64,000 bases of DNA from an uncultured Alphaproteobacteria bacterium (lineage in GTDB: Bacteria > Pseudomonadota > Alphaproteobacteria > UBA11222). Under the pieces are notes generated by a model that was not told the origin of the DNA, did not search any database, and was given only the letters and a program-made list of their open reading frames with translations. The stretch lies in NCBI GenBank assembly GCA_947258435.1, contig CAMYID010000004.1, forward strand, positions 186,001-250,000, in the 5' to 3' direction. This document shows, in pieces, positions 42,219 to 58,576 of the stretch. The translations under genes and the position numbers were made by a program. Within the stretch, counting starts at the first letter, position 1, and each line of letters starts with the position of its first letter.

Positions 42219-43028
42219 TCAGTCTTCCGCGCCGCGGGCGATAAAATGCGGATTGCGGAATTCCGCCTTGCCGTACAGAAAGGGCGATCCGTCCATTCGC
42301 TTCACCGTTCCCCCGGCGCCGGACAATACCGCGTGACCGGCGGCGGTATCCCATTCCATCGTCGGGCCGTGCCGGGGATAGAGATCGGCCTCCCCCGCTG
42401 CAACGACACAGAATTTGAGCGATGAGCCGGCCGCCACCAGTTCCTTCACATCATACTGCCGTAACAGCTCGTCAGTTTTCTTGTCGCGATGGGACCGGCT
42501 GGCAATAACGATCAGCCCGTCCTTGCCGGGCTTTCTGACCGCGATTTTCCGCGGTGGGCCATCAACGTCGCGGCTGTTGCCCTGATGCGGATCGACGCGC
42601 TGCTCAAAAGCCGCCCCGGGGCCTGACGCGTAAAAGAGCCGTTTGACCGCAGGTGCATAGACCACGCCGAGCACAGGCTCACCATGATCGATCAGCGCAA
42701 TATTCACGGTGAACTCGCCGTTCTTGTTCAGAAACTCTTTCGTCCCATCAAGCGGATCGACAAGCCAGAACCGCTGATCGACGCGCGGCAGATTTCCCGC
42801 CGCGGCAAGTTCTTCTGCAACGATCGGGATATCGGGGTCGAGTTTACGCAGCCGCTCGAGGATGAAATCTTCTGTCACCTCATCGGCAATTGTGACAGGC
42901 GATTTGTCGCCCTTTTCCCGCACATCGAGATCGTCTTCGTAATAATGCATGATGATCCCGCCGGCTTCGACCGCAATATCGCGGATCGCTTCGGTCAGGC
43001 AGTCGCGGTCGGATGCCGAAAAGCTCAC
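42219..43028 (-). CDS. cysQ: 3'(2'),5'-bisphosphate nucleotidase CysQ
   Basis: CysQ dephosphorylates PAP (and PAPS), clearing the by-product of sulfotransferases and PAPS reductase. The 269-aa protein has the lithium-sensitive phosphatase motifs: VREKGDKSPVTIADEV, IVAEE, WLVDPLDGTKEFLNKN (metal-binding DPLDGT) and MEWDTAAGHAVLSGAGG (WDxAAG). A sulfotransferase and CysDNC occur elsewhere in the window. It is divergent from chpT. Confidence 0.93.
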   Translation of the reverse strand: MSFSASDRDCLTEAIRDIAVEAGGIIMHYYEDDLDVREKGDKSPVTIADEVTEDFILERLRKLDPDIPIVAEELAAAGNLPRVDQRFWLVDPLDGTKEFLNKNGEFTVNIALIDHGEPVLGVVYAPAVKRLFYASGPGAAFEQRVDPHQGNSRDVDGPPRKIAVRKPGKDGLIVIASRSHRDKKTDELLRQYDVKELVAAGSSLKFCVVAAGEADLYPRHGPTMEWDTAAGHAVLSGAGGTVKRMDGSPFLYGKAEFRNPHFIARGAED

Positions 43029-43167: not shown

Positions 43168-43183
43168 TTAACTATTGGTTAAC
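43168..43183 (+). promoter_or_regulatory. CtrA-type box upstream of chpT
   Basis: TTAACTATTGGTTAAC is a perfect TTAA-N7-TTAA(C) site, 75 nt before the chpT ATG, and is also a palindrome of GTTAAC around TATTG. CtrA in alphaproteobacteria binds this pattern. Confidence 0.6.
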
Positions 43184-43257
43184 CATCTTGTATGATGCAT
43201 GGACAGTCCGATTAGCGAAACAGCCGCCCGATAGTGCGGCGACAGGGTGGAATGCGT

Positions 43258-43896
43258 ATGTCCGAATTGGCGATTTTTGAAATGGCCTCACTTTTGAGTT
43301 CACGGCTTTGCCACGATCTGGTCAGTCCCGTGGGTGCGGTCACCAATGGGCTTGAAGTGCTTGAGGATGAGGATGATGCGGAAATGCGAGAAATGGCCTT
43401 CCGCCTGATCCGAGAGAGTGCGGAGCGGACGGCCAACAAACTGCAATTTGCACGGCTTGCCTATGGCGCGGCTGGCGGGCCGGGTGCCGATATCGATTTG
43501 GGTGAGGCGCGGAAGGTCTGCACACAAATACTGGGTGACCATAAAGTCACGCTGGACTGGCAGTGCGACCTGGCTGCAGTTGATCGCCTGATTGCAAAAT
43601 TATTTGTCAATCTCATTTATCTGTGTGCTGAGAGCCTGCCGCGTGGCGGTTCGGTTGCCGCACAATTATCGGTGCAGGGTTCAGGCGCTGAGATTGTCGT
43701 CAAAGGCGAGGGGGCGATGCTCAGGCCTGCCGAGGGGACGGCGCAGGTTCTGGGTGGCGAACGCGAATTGAATGGCTTATCGCCGCGCGCCGCGCAAGCC
43801 TATTATACCGGGCTTGTAGCCCGCTGCCTGAATGCCAAAGTCGACATGGTTGAGCGTGACGAACTGCTGTCATTTGTCTGCCATACCCAGCTCTAG
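43258..43896 (+). CDS. chpT: Histidine phosphotransferase ChpT
   Basis: ChpT passes phosphate from the hybrid kinase CckA to CtrA and CpdR. The 212-aa protein has the helix bundle with the phosphorylated His in LSSRLCHDLVSPVGAVTNGLEVL and a degenerate ATPase-like C-terminal domain. ATG 43258 gives the usual MSELAIFEMASLL start and leaves AGGGTGGA as ribosome-binding site; the frame opens at 43234 and ATG 43252 is possible. A terminator follows, so cheA is probably a separate unit although adjacent. CckA and CtrA are not in the window. Confidence 0.92.
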   Translation: MSELAIFEMASLLSSRLCHDLVSPVGAVTNGLEVLEDEDDAEMREMAFRLIRESAERTANKLQFARLAYGAAGGPGADIDLGEARKVCTQILGDHKVTLDWQCDLAAVDRLIAKLFVNLIYLCAESLPRGGSVAAQLSVQGSGAEIVVKGEGAMLRPAEGTAQVLGGERELNGLSPRAAQAYYTGLVARCLNAKVDMVERDELLSFVCHTQL

Positions 43897-43926
43897 TCCA
43901 TCCTTTTTGTTCTTTCTGCCCGCACG

Positions 43927-43965
43927 AAAGCCGTAAAACCCCAACGTGAGCTTTACGGCTTTTTA
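43927..43965 (+). terminator. Terminator after chpT
   Basis: The stem AAAGCCGTAAA / TTTACGGCTTT (43927-43937, 43952-43962) is followed by TTAA within a T run. It lies 31 nt after the stop. Confidence 0.85.
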
Positions 43966-44054
43966 ACGCCACTCCGATATCCATGTGACATTAGCGAATT
44001 AAGGCCCCCTGGCCTGAGGGGGCTCCCATATGGGTGTATTGCAGGGTTGGCGAA

Positions 44055-46916
44055 ATGGATGATTTACTTAATGAGTTTCTGACGGAGACGAATGAAAGCC
44101 TCGATGTAGTCGATGCGGAACTCGTAAGGTTTGAAAAGGACCCCAATGACAAGGCGGTTCTGGACAATATTTTCCGGCTTGTACATACGGTCAAGGGGAC
44201 ATGTGGCTTTCTTGACTTGCCGCGATTGGAAGCCGTTGCCCATGCTTCTGAAAATGTTCTGGGCAAATTCCGCGATGGTGAACTTCAGGTCACGACGGAA
44301 GCGGTTAGCCTCATCCTCGAATCGATTGACGCGATTAAGTCGATCATGGCCGATCTTGAGGCGACCGAAAAAGAGCCCGAAGGCGATGATAACGAGCTTA
44401 TCGGGAAGCTAAACTGTGTCGCCGCCGGCCAGGCCCCTGACGGTGGTGAAGCAATTGCGCAAACGGATATGCTCCAGGCCGAGCCTGAGCCGGAACCCGT
44501 CGCGCAGGAAACTGAGCCCGATATCAATCCAACTCTTGATCGCCCGTTACGGCCCGGCGAGGTGTCGCTCGAGGAACTTGAAGCGGCCTTTGCTGCAGCA
44601 CCCGGGCCGGATGCAGAAGCCGGGGCAAGTGCGGGTAACGCAGCAGATGACGCGTCTGCTGACATCGCGAGTGAGGCGCCGGCAGCTGAGTCCGTTGCTT
44701 CGGCAGATAGCGCAAAAGCGCCTGAACAGCCGGTGCCGGCAGTCGCGCCCGCAGCAAAAGCTGAAAGTGAAAAAGCGGAAAAGCAGGGTGGGAAGTCTGA
44801 AAAGGCAGAACCCTCTGTCGCGACGCAGTCGGTTCGGGTCAATGTCGACCTTCTCGAAGACCTGATGACGATGGTCAGCGAGCTGGTGCTGACGCGTAAT
44901 CAGCTGCTGCAGATTGTCCGGCAGCAGGAGGATAGTGAGTTCAATGTGCCCTTGCAGCGGCTTAACCTGGTGACAACGGAGCTGCAGGAAGGTGTCATGA
45001 AGACCCGCATGCAGCCGATTGGCAATGCCTGGCAGAAGCTGCCGCGTATTCTGCGCGATCTCAGCCATGAGCTTGGCAAGAAAATCGATCTTCAGATGAG
45101 CGGCGCTGACACCGAACTCGATCGCCAGGTGCTGGAGCTTATCAAGGATCCGCTGACGCATATGGTGCGCAACTCCGCCGATCACGGCCTGGAAAGCACC
45201 GAAGGCCGGATTGCGGCGGGCAAACCACCGGTGGGTGTGATCAAGCTCGATGCCTATCATGAAGGCGGGCACGTTATCATCCGGATTTCTGACGATGGCG
45301 GTGGGCTGAACCTGGAGAAGATCAAGTCCAAAGCACTGGCGGTCGGGTTGACCAGCGAAGGCGAACTCGATCAGCTCAGCGAACAGCAGATCAGCAACTT
45401 TATCTTCAAACCGGGCTTTTCCACCGCGCAGGAAGTGACCAGCGTTTCGGGGCGCGGTGTCGGCATGGACGTCGTGCGGAGCAATATCGAGAAAATCGGC
45501 GGCACGGTGGAAGTGCGCAGCGAGGTCGGTCGTGGCTCCGTCTTCACGATCAAGATTCCGCTGACGCTTGCAATTGTATCGGCTCTGGTGGTCGAGTCCT
45601 GCGGTGAGCGTTTTGCCATTCCGCAAATCAGTGTCGTGGAGCTTGTCAGGGCATCAAGCAATTCCGAACATCGTGTTGAGAAGCTGAAGGAGACGCCGGT
45701 ACTGCGGTTGCGCGACCAGCTGTTGCCGCTTGTCTATCTCAGCGATGTATTGGGGCTTGAGGCCGATCCGGACATCGCGGTGCAGCAAGATGATGAAGCG
45801 GATGTAGCGGCCGGCAACGACAGGCAGCCAGACGCAAAGAACGATGATGAATTCGTCGTTGTCACACAGGTCGGCACCTTCCGCTTTGGTATCGTTGTCG
45901 ACCGTGTGTTCGATACCGAGGAAATCGTCGTCAAGCCTGTTGCGCCGATTCTGCGCGACATCAGCGTCTTTTCCGGAAATACGATTTTAGGCGATGGCAG
46001 TGTCATCATGATCCTCGATCCCAACGGGATTGCCGATGCATGCGGTGATGTGAAGGATGAAAATGATGAAGCCGCGCTCGAAGCTGCAAATGCGCAGGAC
46101 AGCAGTGAAAAGATCTCGATACTGATCTTTAATACCGGTAGTGCCGAACCCAAGGCTGTGCCGCTTTCGCTTGTCTCGCGACTTGAAGAAGTTGAATGCA
46201 CTGATATCGAACGTTCTAACGGCATTGATGTCGTGCAGTATCGCGGCCAGGTTATGCCGATCCTGCGAATTTCCGACAGCTATGAACTGCGCAAGGAAGG
46301 GCGGCAGCCGCTGCTGGTGTTTGCAGATGAGACCCGCACGATGGGACTGGCCGTCGATGAGATCGTCGATATCGTCGAGGAGCAGTTGAAAATCGAATTG
46401 CCGTCGGATTGCGAAGGGATGCTTGGCACCGCGGTGGTTAACGGGATGGCGACGGAAATTGTCGATGTCAGCCATTATCTCGTCAAAGCCTTCCCTGACT
46501 GGTTCGATGAAAACCGTCAGGAACGTGCAAAATCCAATAAACATTTGTTGCTCGTCGATGACAGCAGCTTCTTCCGCAACATGCTCGCCCCGCTACTTGC
46601 GACCGTCGGCTACAAGGTGACCGCTGTTGAAAATGCCGACCGCGCGCTTGAACTGCGGGAGCTGGGAAATCACTTCGATGTGATCGTCAGCGATATCGAG
46701 ATGCCCGGAATGGACGGGTTTGATCTGGCATCCGAAATCCGCAGTGACGAGCGCTGGGGCAAGACGCCGATCGTGGCGATTTCGTCGCACGGAACCCCGC
46801 AGGATTTTGATCGTGGCCGAAGCGTCGGGTTTACCGACTATGTCGTGAAGACCGACAGGCGAGGTCTGCTTGAGAGCATTCAGGAAACATTGCACATGGA
46901 AGGAAGCGCGGCATGA
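44055..46916 (+). CDS. cheA: Hybrid chemotaxis histidine kinase CheA with duplicated CheW-like domain and C-terminal receiver
   Basis: The 953-aa kinase has these domains in order: Hpt with phosphorylated His44 in RLVHTVKGTCGF; an Ala/Glu/Pro-rich linker (about 125-255) without a clear P2; a dimerisation domain (MTMVSELVLTRNQLL); the ATPase (about 330-475; MVRNSADHGLE, ISDDGGGLNLEKI, SGRGVGMDVVRSNI); a CheW domain; a second CheW-like domain (about 655-800, ending near DWFDENRQER); and a receiver from about 829 with Asp880 in VSDIEMPGMDG. The second CheW-like domain and receiver are additions beyond enteric CheA. ATG 44055 begins the Hpt. It overlaps cheW in an ATGA. Confidence 0.95.
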   Translation: MDDLLNEFLTETNESLDVVDAELVRFEKDPNDKAVLDNIFRLVHTVKGTCGFLDLPRLEAVAHASENVLGKFRDGELQVTTEAVSLILESIDAIKSIMADLEATEKEPEGDDNELIGKLNCVAAGQAPDGGEAIAQTDMLQAEPEPEPVAQETEPDINPTLDRPLRPGEVSLEELEAAFAAAPGPDAEAGASAGNAADDASADIASEAPAAESVASADSAKAPEQPVPAVAPAAKAESEKAEKQGGKSEKAEPSVATQSVRVNVDLLEDLMTMVSELVLTRNQLLQIVRQQEDSEFNVPLQRLNLVTTELQEGVMKTRMQPIGNAWQKLPRILRDLSHELGKKIDLQMSGADTELDRQVLELIKDPLTHMVRNSADHGLESTEGRIAAGKPPVGVIKLDAYHEGGHVIIRISDDGGGLNLEKIKSKALAVGLTSEGELDQLSEQQISNFIFKPGFSTAQEVTSVSGRGVGMDVVRSNIEKIGGTVEVRSEVGRGSVFTIKIPLTLAIVSALVVESCGERFAIPQISVVELVRASSNSEHRVEKLKETPVLRLRDQLLPLVYLSDVLGLEADPDIAVQQDDEADVAAGNDRQPDAKNDDEFVVVTQVGTFRFGIVVDRVFDTEEIVVKPVAPILRDISVFSGNTILGDGSVIMILDPNGIADACGDVKDENDEAALEAANAQDSSEKISILIFNTGSAEPKAVPLSLVSRLEEVECTDIERSNGIDVVQYRGQVMPILRISDSYELRKEGRQPLLVFADETRTMGLAVDEIVDIVEEQLKIELPSDCEGMLGTAVVNGMATEIVDVSHYLVKAFPDWFDENRQERAKSNKHLLLVDDSSFFRNMLAPLLATVGYKVTAVENADRALELRELGNHFDVIVSDIEMPGMDGFDLASEIRSDERWGKTPIVAISSHGTPQDFDRGRSVGFTDYVVKTDRRGLLESIQETLHMEGSAA

Positions 46917-47407
46917 CCGACAATTTGGTGACTGACGTCCAGGCCATGGGCGGTGATATAAAAGATAGCGGGCAGAGCTTTGTCACCATGATCGTTGCCG
47001 ATCAGCTGTTCGGTGTGCCGGTGCTGGATGTGCATGATGTATTTATTCCCACCAAACTTGCACATGTTCCGATGGCGGCACCAGAGGTTGCAGGCGTGCT
47101 GAACCTGAGAGGCCGTATTGTCACGGCCATCGATCTGCGTCGCAGGCTTGGCTATCCACTGCTGGAGGAAGGCAAGCAGGTGATGGCCGTCGTTATCGAG
47201 CATCACGGTGAGCCCTATAGCCTGTTAATCGACAGTGTCGGCGAAGTGCTTAACCTTGCTGATGCGTCCTGCGAGCGAAATCCGGTCAATCTGGATCAGC
47301 GGTGGCGCGATGTATCGGGCGGCGTTTACCGACTGGAGGACAAGCTGATGGTGGTCCTGCAGCTCGACAAAATAATCGAAACAGGAAATGGCGCGATAGC
47401 CGCCTAG
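46913..47407 (+). CDS. cheW: Chemotaxis coupling protein CheW
   Basis: The 164-aa CheW fold has FVTMIVADQLFGVPVLDVHDV, NLRGRIVTAIDLRRRLG and VVIEHHGEPYSLLIDSVGEV, the marks of the linker between receptors and CheA. Its start overlaps the cheA stop by 4 nt. The cheY-like gene follows 38 nt later. No chemoreceptor gene lies in this window, so receptors are elsewhere. Confidence 0.95.
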   Translation: MTDNLVTDVQAMGGDIKDSGQSFVTMIVADQLFGVPVLDVHDVFIPTKLAHVPMAAPEVAGVLNLRGRIVTAIDLRRRLGYPLLEEGKQVMAVVIEHHGEPYSLLIDSVGEVLNLADASCERNPVNLDQRWRDVSGGVYRLEDKLMVVLQLDKIIETGNGAIAA

Positions 47408-47445
47408 ATTTACTCCCCCCAACTTGCGCACCGGAGTGGTGAAAA

Positions 47446-47811
47446 ATGAAATCTTGTCTGATCGTCGATGACTCTAGGGTGATCCGGAAAGTCGCCCGAC
47501 AGATTCTGGAAGAGCTGCATTTTACGACCGTTGAAGCGGTTGACGGAAAGGAAGCGCTTGACTGCTGTCGCGACAGCATGCCCGACGCGATCCTGCTTGA
47601 TTGGAACATGCCAGTCATGAGCGGGATCGATTTTCTGCGCAAGCTGCGGCAGGAACAGGGCGGTGAGTTGCCTGTCGTCGTCTTTTGTACGACGGAAAAT
47701 GATATCGAGCATATCACGGAAGCTATTCAGGCGGGTGCAAACGAGTACATCATGAAACCGTTTGACCGCGATATCATCGAAACCAAATTCACTGAAGTCG
47801 GCCTCGTTTAG
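47446..47811 (+). CDS. cheY: CheY-like single-domain response regulator
   Basis: The 121-aa receiver has the acidic pair DD8-9 (IVDDSRVIRK), phosphorylated Asp52 in LLDWNMPVMSG, Thr in FCTTENDIE and Lys104 in YIMKPFDRD. It is the likely output of the neighbouring CheA, acting at the flagellar motor or as a phosphate sink. It lies between cheW and cheB in the same operon. Confidence 0.93.
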   Translation: MKSCLIVDDSRVIRKVARQILEELHFTTVEAVDGKEALDCCRDSMPDAILLDWNMPVMSGIDFLRKLRQEQGGELPVVVFCTTENDIEHITEAIQAGANEYIMKPFDRDIIETKFTEVGLV

Positions 47812-47844
47812 TCGCAGCCATTCAGGAGCCAGGGCAAATATATC

Positions 47845-48993
47845 GTGACGAGCAATAATTCCGCCGCGGCAAAACAGGTTATAGCGAACAAAAAATCCGC
47901 ACAGCCATATCGGGTGATGCTTGTGGATGATTCGGCCGTGATCCGTGGCAAGCTGACCCAATGGCTGGATGCCGATCCGAATTTTTCCGTCGTGGGATCT
48001 TACTGCAATGGCCTGCAAGCGGTTCAGAATGTGAAGAGTTGTGGCGCTGAGATTGCAATTCTCGATATTGAAATGCCGCAAATGGACGGTCTGACGGCCC
48101 TGCCGAAACTGCTTTCGGAGGTGCCGAAACTGCGGGTCATCATGGCCTCGACCCTGACAAGACGTAATGCGGATGTCAGCCTGAAAGCGCTGTCGATGGG
48201 GGCTGTCGATTACCTGCCGAAACCGGAAAGCGCCAAGGCGGGTACAGGAACCGAGGACTTCCATCGGGATTTGATTGCCAAGCTGCGTGCAATCGGTGCC
48301 GGCCTGCGGCGTCAGGCGGCCGATAGCGCACCGCGCACTTTGCGCGGAGCAGCGGAAGCGCTGGCTAAACCGCCCGCACAGTTGCCTGCGATGCGGGCGC
48401 GCTCGCTCGTCAGGCCTCGGGTGCTGGCGATTGGCAGTTCAACCGGCGGGCCACAGGCATTGTTTAAGGTGCTTGGTGGCATGGGCAAGGGTGAGCTGAC
48501 GGTACCGGTTATTGTTACGCAGCATATGCCACCGACTTTCACCGCAATCCTGGCTGAACATATCCAGAATATGACGGGATTGCCGGCGAGTGAGGCAAAG
48601 AATGGTGAGCGGCTGCAGCCCGGTCACGTTTATGTGGCACCTGGCGATTATCATATGACCGTGCAGAAACGTGGCGGCGATATCGTTCTGGCTCTCAATC
48701 AGGGGCCACAGGTGAATTTCTGCCGTCCGGCTGTGGATCCGATGTTCGAAAGCGTGGCGTCGGTATATGGGGCTGCCGGTTTGTGCCTATTGCTGACCGG
48801 TATGGGGCAGGACGGGCGCGAGGGTGGCAAAAAGGTTGTCGGTGCCGGTGGCACCGTGGTCGCTCAGGATGAAGCAACAAGTGTGGTTTGGGGAATGCCG
48901 GGGGCGGCAGCAGAGGCAGGAATTTGTGCAGCGGTACTGCCTTTGCCGGAAATCGCCAGCACGTTGCAGCGGTATTTTCGGGGAGCCCCGTGA
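47845..48993 (+). CDS. cheB: Chemotaxis protein-glutamate methylesterase CheB
   Basis: The 382-aa protein has a receiver with Asp74 (ILDIEMPQMDG) and a C-terminal methylesterase with Ser in AIGSSTGGPQALF, His in TQHMPPTFTAIL and Asp in TGMGQDGREGG. It removes methyl groups from chemoreceptors when phosphorylated. The start is GTG with a CAGGGC 8 nt upstream. Its stop shares one base with the cheR ATG. Confidence 0.95.
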   Translation: MTSNNSAAAKQVIANKKSAQPYRVMLVDDSAVIRGKLTQWLDADPNFSVVGSYCNGLQAVQNVKSCGAEIAILDIEMPQMDGLTALPKLLSEVPKLRVIMASTLTRRNADVSLKALSMGAVDYLPKPESAKAGTGTEDFHRDLIAKLRAIGAGLRRQAADSAPRTLRGAAEALAKPPAQLPAMRARSLVRPRVLAIGSSTGGPQALFKVLGGMGKGELTVPVIVTQHMPPTFTAILAEHIQNMTGLPASEAKNGERLQPGHVYVAPGDYHMTVQKRGGDIVLALNQGPQVNFCRPAVDPMFESVASVYGAAGLCLLLTGMGQDGREGGKKVVGAGGTVVAQDEATSVVWGMPGAAAEAGICAAVLPLPEIASTLQRYFRGAP

Positions 48994-49865
48994 TGAACAA
49001 GAGCGATTTTGACTTCCTGTGTGATTTCCTTCGGCAGCGTTCAGGTCTTATTCTCAGCCAGGACAAAATGTACCTGATTGAAAGTCGTTTGCTTCCTGTT
49101 GCGAAGAAAAATGGCCTCAAGAGCCTTGAAGAGCTGGTGGCTGCTATTCGTAGAGGGCAGGACAAGAAACTTGTCCAGCTCGTCACCGAAGCGATGACGA
49201 CAAATGAATCGTTCTTCTTTCGGGACAAAACGCCTTTCGACACGCTGCGCGATCAGGTCTTGCCCGCTTTGATCGAAGCGCGCGGCAGTTCCAGGCAGTT
49301 GCGGATATGGTCTGCCGCGGCTTCGACAGGACAAGAGCCTTATTCGATTGCCATGATCCTCAAGGATCTGCAGGCAAGGATGCAAGGCTGGCGCCTGGAT
49401 ATTATCGGCACTGACTTGTCCCACGAGGTGTTGGAAAAAGCGCGCGCCGGAATGTACAGCCAGTTTGAGGTGCAGCGCGGTTTGCCAATTCAGATGCTGG
49501 TCAAGTATTTCAAGCAGATCGGTGAAATGTGGCAGATTGACGCGGGCTTGCGCGCGATGGTCAATTTCCAGCCCGGCAATCTGCTTGAACGCTTCGACAG
49601 TCTGGGCAAGTTCGATATCATTTTCTGCCGCAACGTGTTGATCTACTTCGATCAGGAAACCAAGAAGGACATACTTGAGCGCATGGTTCGTCAGATGCCC
49701 GAAGACGGTATGTTGTTTCTGGGGTCCGCCGAGACTGTGCTGGGTGTGACTGATCAGTTGGCCGCGGTCAAAGGCCTGCGGGGGGTTTACTGCAAAAAAT
49801 CACTGTTAACGACGGTCTCGTCGCCAAGGCCGGCAGCAGCCCCGCTTGCCGCAAAATCTGCATGA
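48993..49865 (+). CDS. cheR: Chemotaxis protein methyltransferase CheR
   Basis: The 290-aa SAM enzyme methylates receptor glutamates. It has the helical N domain (DFLRQRSGLILSQDKMYLIESRL), TTNESFFFRDKTPF, the SAM region IWSAAASTGQEPYSIAMIL and IIFCRNVLIYFD. ATG 48993 overlaps the cheB stop; the frame continues upstream inside cheB and was not used. The operon ends with a clear terminator. Confidence 0.94.
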   Translation: MNKSDFDFLCDFLRQRSGLILSQDKMYLIESRLLPVAKKNGLKSLEELVAAIRRGQDKKLVQLVTEAMTTNESFFFRDKTPFDTLRDQVLPALIEARGSSRQLRIWSAAASTGQEPYSIAMILKDLQARMQGWRLDIIGTDLSHEVLEKARAGMYSQFEVQRGLPIQMLVKYFKQIGEMWQIDAGLRAMVNFQPGNLLERFDSLGKFDIIFCRNVLIYFDQETKKDILERMVRQMPEDGMLFLGSAETVLGVTDQLAAVKGLRGVYCKKSLLTTVSSPRPAAAPLAAKSA

Positions 49866-58561: not shown

Positions 58562-58576
58562 TTAAGTATTCATTAA
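58562..58576 (+). promoter_or_regulatory. CtrA-type box before a small uncharacterised gene
   Basis: TTAAGTATTCATTAA is an exact TTAA-N7-TTAA, only 6 nt before the ATG at 58582 and 30 nt before ATG 58606. A further TTAAC stands at 58586-58590. Confidence 0.5.

Follow-up and report, generated by a model that had tools for sequence, protein, structure and literature searches.

The window, by which we mean the whole 64-kb stretch of DNA analyzed here, holds a chpT gene that shares its intergenic region with a divergent cysQ gene and is followed by chemotaxis genes. The features of the locus are as follows.

42219–43028, minus strand: cysQ, 3'(2'),5'-bisphosphate nucleotidase, divergent from chpT (TIGR01331, 294 bits against a cut-off of 229)
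43168–43186, plus strand: candidate CtrA box TTAACTATTGGTTAACCAT, of the form TTAA-N7-TTAACCAT (motif match, kept in six of six family genomes)
43168–43173, plus strand: −35-like hexamer TTAACT, overlapping the first CtrA half-site (sigma-70-type consensus scan)
43191–43196, plus strand: −10-like hexamer TATGAT, identical in the sister species G001 (sigma-70-type consensus scan)
43258–43896, plus strand: chpT, histidine phosphotransferase (PF10090, NCBIfam, and structure matches)
43952–43967, plus strand: CtrA-like box TTTACGGCTTYTTAA with one mismatch (TTTA-N7-TTAAC), before cheA (recurrence in six genomes)
44055–46916, plus strand: cheA, the first gene of cheA-cheW-cheY-cheB-cheR, downstream of chpT

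The gene at 43258–43896 is a genuine chpT and the single match in the genome. Its product carries the ChpT C-terminal domain (PF10090, E = 1e-24), and its closest solved structures are those of ChpT (4qpj, 4fmt, and 4fpp), with the Cys-His-Asp phospho-acceptor motif aligned; the domain and the alignment together give a ChpT-type fold with a His phospho-acceptor. Two ChpT equivalogs were the sole NCBIfam families matched, at 198 and 176 bits, below the respective cut-offs of 240 and 225 of these models, both of which were calibrated on other orders. The genome also has one clear copy of ctrA. The receiver domain of its product matches the CtrA of the ChpT–CtrA structure entry 4qpj, and its DNA-recognition region is identical to that of a Caulobacter CtrA sequence.

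In the window, chpT heads the cheA-cheW-cheY-cheB-cheR cluster (43258–49865), and downstream of chpT most of the 34 alphaproteobacterial loci examined likewise show a cheA-like start in the same orientation. In G003 and G006 (L070 and L074), ctrA lies at the far end of the chpT-che cluster. The CtrA-like box TTTACGGCTTYTTAA is present in exactly one copy in each of the six family genomes, always between chpT and cheA, and other families have comparable stretches, TTCA- or TTTA-N7-TTAAC, ahead of cheA. A terminator scan found no terminator between chpT and cheA; a hairpin, AGCCGTAAA...TTTACGGCT, with T's behind it lies there in the present genome (G000) and in similar form in G001, and is absent from the other genus.

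The initial annotation had placed an exact TTAA-N7-TTAAC at 43168–43183, and both the sequence, TTAACTATTGGTTAAC, and the coordinates proved correct. This 16-mer, separated from the chpT ATG at 43258 by 74 nt, belongs to a longer CtrA match, TTAA-N7-TTAACCAT, which ends 71 nt before the ATG and whose form recurs at other CtrA-like targets found in the genome. Within the window, TTAA-N7-TTAAC occurs at one place, which is read on both strands because of its GTTAAC palindrome; dinucleotide shuffles of the window gave a mean of 0.04 matches, and at least two matches appeared in 1 of 100 shuffles. Only 4 places carry TTAA-N7-TTAAC in the whole 2.88-Mb genome, and TTAA-N7-TTWACCAT is found at 2 places versus 0 for the reversed-pattern control. 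The shorter TTAA-N7-TTAA occurs at just 10 places versus 45 for its reversed control, indicating that this motif is avoided overall in the genome. Its one other occurrence in the window, TTAAGTATTCATTAA at 58562–58576, lies approximately 255 nt upstream of a sulfate-adenylyltransferase-like gene.

Based on the consensus scan, TTAACT and TATGAT, separated by 17 nt, form the sole promoter-like pair before chpT on the chpT strand. With these hexamers at 43168 and 43191, the CtrA box covers the −35 region, and transcription would be expected to start near 43203; the ribosome-binding sequence AGGGTGGA precedes the ATG. In Caulobacter, full CtrA motifs with their 5' base near −35 are associated with activation in the predivisional cell (PMC4287350, PMC11264516), and CtrA repression goes with sites closer to the transcription start (PMC4287350). 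The 5' base of the present site likewise falls near the −35 of the predicted promoter, and thus its geometry fits the activating class of CtrA sites. In the second genus of the family, however, the downstream half-site reads TTTA and there is no clear −10, which counts against the box as a CtrA operator.

To judge conservation, six family genomes from two genera, of 2.5–3.5 Mb each, were compared. TTAA-N7-TTWACCAT precedes chpT in all six, as TTAACTATTGGTTAACCAT, TTAACCAATCATTAACCAT, TTAACACTCCGTTTACCAT, TTAACGATGTGTTTACCAT, TTAACCAACCGTTTACCAT, and TTAACCCTCCATTTACCAT, so that conservation in close relatives, the test proposed in the initial annotation, favors the site. Across the family, the spacer of the box is altered and the half-sites are not. 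Each family genome has 2–4 TTAA-N7-TTWACCAT sites and none of the reversed-pattern control, and the chance of a correctly oriented site within 300 nt before one given gene is therefore 1e-4 to 2e-4 per genome. In five of the six genomes the box begins 90–101 nt ahead of where the ChpT match starts, and in G004, where extra sequence intervenes, 266 nt ahead of it; at this locus (L012, G004:C235), approximately 165 extra nt, including a short tandem repeat, lie between the box and chpT. The genomes of the first genus agree in the block TTAACCATCTTGTATGATGCATGG together with the −10 and differ in the spacer and flanks. In a MAFFT alignment, the flanks of the chpT upstream regions proved diverged; the regions were anchored on the motif, whose columns are thus invariant by construction and carry no statistical weight.

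The family has no closer sister family among the genomes compared, and the wider comparison covered 57 other chpT upstream regions, most of them from different families of the class. TTAA-N7-TTAA was found in 2 of these 57 (G009 and G010), TTAA-N7-TTAACCAT within one mismatch in 0 of 57, and TTAA-N7-TTAAC with at most one mismatch in 9 of 57, where shuffles average 3.1 over all 63 regions. A class-wide chpT box was rejected on the first two counts, and collectively the three counts mark the box as a family trait with possible scattered parallels rather than a general feature. Its absence from most relatives beyond the family is a point against the box as a CtrA operator. Separately, four Rhodobiaceae-type loci (L013, L038, L039, and L040) carry a TTAACCAT half-site on the opposite strand approximately 15–20 nt before the chpT start.

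Across the genome, CtrA-pathway transcription units account for five of the ten TTAA-N7-TTAA places: chpT, divL, cpdR, and two at the cckA operon. The gene behind the box at G000:C22 encodes PAS, HisKA, and HATPase domains; it was considered as cckA and rejected, since its product has Tyr instead of His at the phospho-acceptor position (HISYQLRTPL in G000 and G001), which identifies it as divL. In G003, divL has one in-frame stop codon (L067 near 2302, G003:C26), reflecting a sequencing error or a broken gene. The cpdR box lies at G000:C4:57601, and a box also precedes cpdR in G001 and G005. Two boxes 40 bp apart (L129:3802–3856, G000:C23:117801–117855) lie between flgBC-fliE-(fliQ)-fliR-flhB-cckA and the divergent fliO-fliP, flagellar names that were read from protein sequences rather than by family search. 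Here cckA begins approximately 13 nt after flhB, the last flagellar gene of the operon, and the boxes are also paired at this promoter in G001, G002, and G003, giving four family genomes. Additionally, a one-mismatch TTAT-N7-TTAACCAA stands upstream of ctrA in its promoter, at 45 nt in both G000 and G001 and at 42 nt in G003.

Of the five other TTAA-N7-TTAA places, one is in a flagellar gene region, between flgE and fliF, and another precedes trmFO (G000:C11:56854, L133:1855) and is also kept at G001:C57:765 (L136), so that the two species of the genus share it. The sister genus has sites before pilA (G005), before Tad pilus genes (G002), and before the gene for a PilZ protein (G004); pilus and PilZ-type genes are of the sort that is under CtrA control elsewhere. 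Together, the boxes at divL, cpdR, the cckA operon, ctrA, pilA, and the Tad pilus genes form a predicted CtrA regulon of the expected kind. Furthermore, three of the four perfect TTAA-N7-TTAAC places lie at pathway genes (P roughly 4e-6 with a list of 14 genes of our own choosing, to be taken as a guide only). With chpT, divL, cpdR, the cckA operon, and ctrA all boxed, CtrA might act directly on every layer of its relay, with its strongest sites on its own circuit and flagellar and pilus genes as further targets, a scheme that we advance tentatively. We know of no described organism in which this complete set is under CtrA boxes.

We propose that 43168–43186 is a CtrA operator in the −35 region of the chpT promoter, through which phosphorylated CtrA (CtrA~P) would activate chpT and set the gain of the relay; we give this reading as a whole a probability of roughly 0.78. 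Binding of CtrA at the box is very likely, and activation of chpT is likely. Alternatively, CtrA may bind but repress chpT, say by covering the −35 of a CtrA-independent promoter, which would create negative feedback. Some Caulobacter promoters are CtrA-repressed, and TTAACT-17-TATGAT might work alone as a sigma-70 promoter; however, full sites with their 5' base at −35 go with activation and repressing sites lie nearer the start (PMC4287350), and we regard repression as unlikely, if the most credible of the alternatives.

The GTTAAC-N5-GTTAAC palindrome, an inverted repeat that is perfect in the window, might be the operator of another dimeric regulator, with the CtrA match a coincidence, as the initial annotation had also considered. 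This suggestion did not hold up well: the palindrome is incomplete in G001 and absent from the second genus (CTTAAC...GTTTAC), which nevertheless keeps TTAA-N7-TTWACCAT, and the fading of the palindrome while the direct repeat stays favors CtrA over an unrelated dimeric regulator. The same motif moreover marks divL, cpdR, and pilA, and such a regulator appears very improbable. Equally improbable is a chance match or functionless relic; the motif is short and AT-rich, but it stands in the right place and orientation in six genomes that have so few sites each, against the 1e-4 to 2e-4 expected per genome for a given gene. Least probable of all, the box may mainly serve the divergent cysQ, as TTAA-N7-TTAAC can be read from either strand in the window and the sister species; however, only the chpT orientation is kept by the CCAT extension and in the second genus, and the −10 is also on the side of chpT.

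ChpT serves as the phosphate carrier between CckA and CtrA and in Caulobacter passes phosphate to CpdR as well. On the reading of the box as an activating operator, CtrA~P would bind the direct repeat TTAA-N7-TTAACCAT and would most likely recruit RNA polymerase to the TATGAT −10, and the level of ChpT would rise. The gain of the relay would increase through such a loop: with CckA acting as a kinase, CtrA~P would be reinforced, and with CckA acting as a phosphatase, CtrA~P would be lost faster. Because ChpT moves phosphate both ways, more ChpT would amplify whatever CckA does, and the loop would amount to gain control rather than simple positive feedback. Since the candidate site lies exactly at the predicted chpT promoter and is kept in all six of the sequenced family genomes, it is very probable that CtrA acts on the circuit by which it is itself controlled, a type of wiring that had been suspected in some other bacteria. 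The idea raised in the initial annotation, that CtrA feeds back on its own phosphotransferase gene, thus gains support from the six family genomes. Beyond this, the box overlaps a −35/−10 pair in what is probably an activating position, and CtrA-like boxes also stand at divL, at cpdR, at the cckA operon, and probably at ctrA.

The idea of CtrA acting at chpT has been raised before. In Sinorhizobium meliloti, a CtrA motif lies upstream of the mapped chpT transcription start, as had been predicted earlier, and S. meliloti and the present family are alike in this respect (PMC3616915). S. meliloti belongs to a different order of Alphaproteobacteria, however, and the passage on its chpT motif mentions no comparable boxes at divL and the cckA operon (PMC3616915). 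The present chpT box is thus a well-supported and well-conserved new case of a feedback of known kind. Similarly, CtrA feedback on its own phosphorelay genes was predicted for "cluster B," with CtrA control of cckA and divL (Brilli 2010, PMC2877005); chpT is not named there as a target, whereas the present genome has sites at chpT and cpdR. In Dinoroseobacter shibae, ctrA and cckA are CtrA-controlled and chpT is stated not to be (PMC7232146, PMC4046655), in contrast to the CtrA box at chpT here. No CtrA site was found before chpT in Ruegeria KLH11, and its full CtrA site at cckA is without effect on expression (PMC3692519), so that a site alone is no proof of regulation. Hyphomonas neptunium shares the TTAA-N7-TTAAC consensus with the chpT box, and its CtrA was bound at its own promoter; its cpdR is not CtrA-regulated (PMC7200025), whereas the present family has a conserved box at cpdR. 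Judged against the open-access literature, the combination of CtrA boxes over the whole relay may be unusual.

Across the Alphaproteobacteria, the CtrA circuit has been rewired repeatedly. Since ChpT is a shared phosphate carrier in both directions, CtrA control of chpT would alter the gain of the relay and would be more than one added output. The family offers a case, conserved and defined at the sequence level, in which chpT, divL, cpdR, and the cckA operon all have CtrA boxes, and, set beside lineages in which chpT is free of CtrA, it opens to direct comparison the question of why autoregulation is found at some relay genes and not at others.
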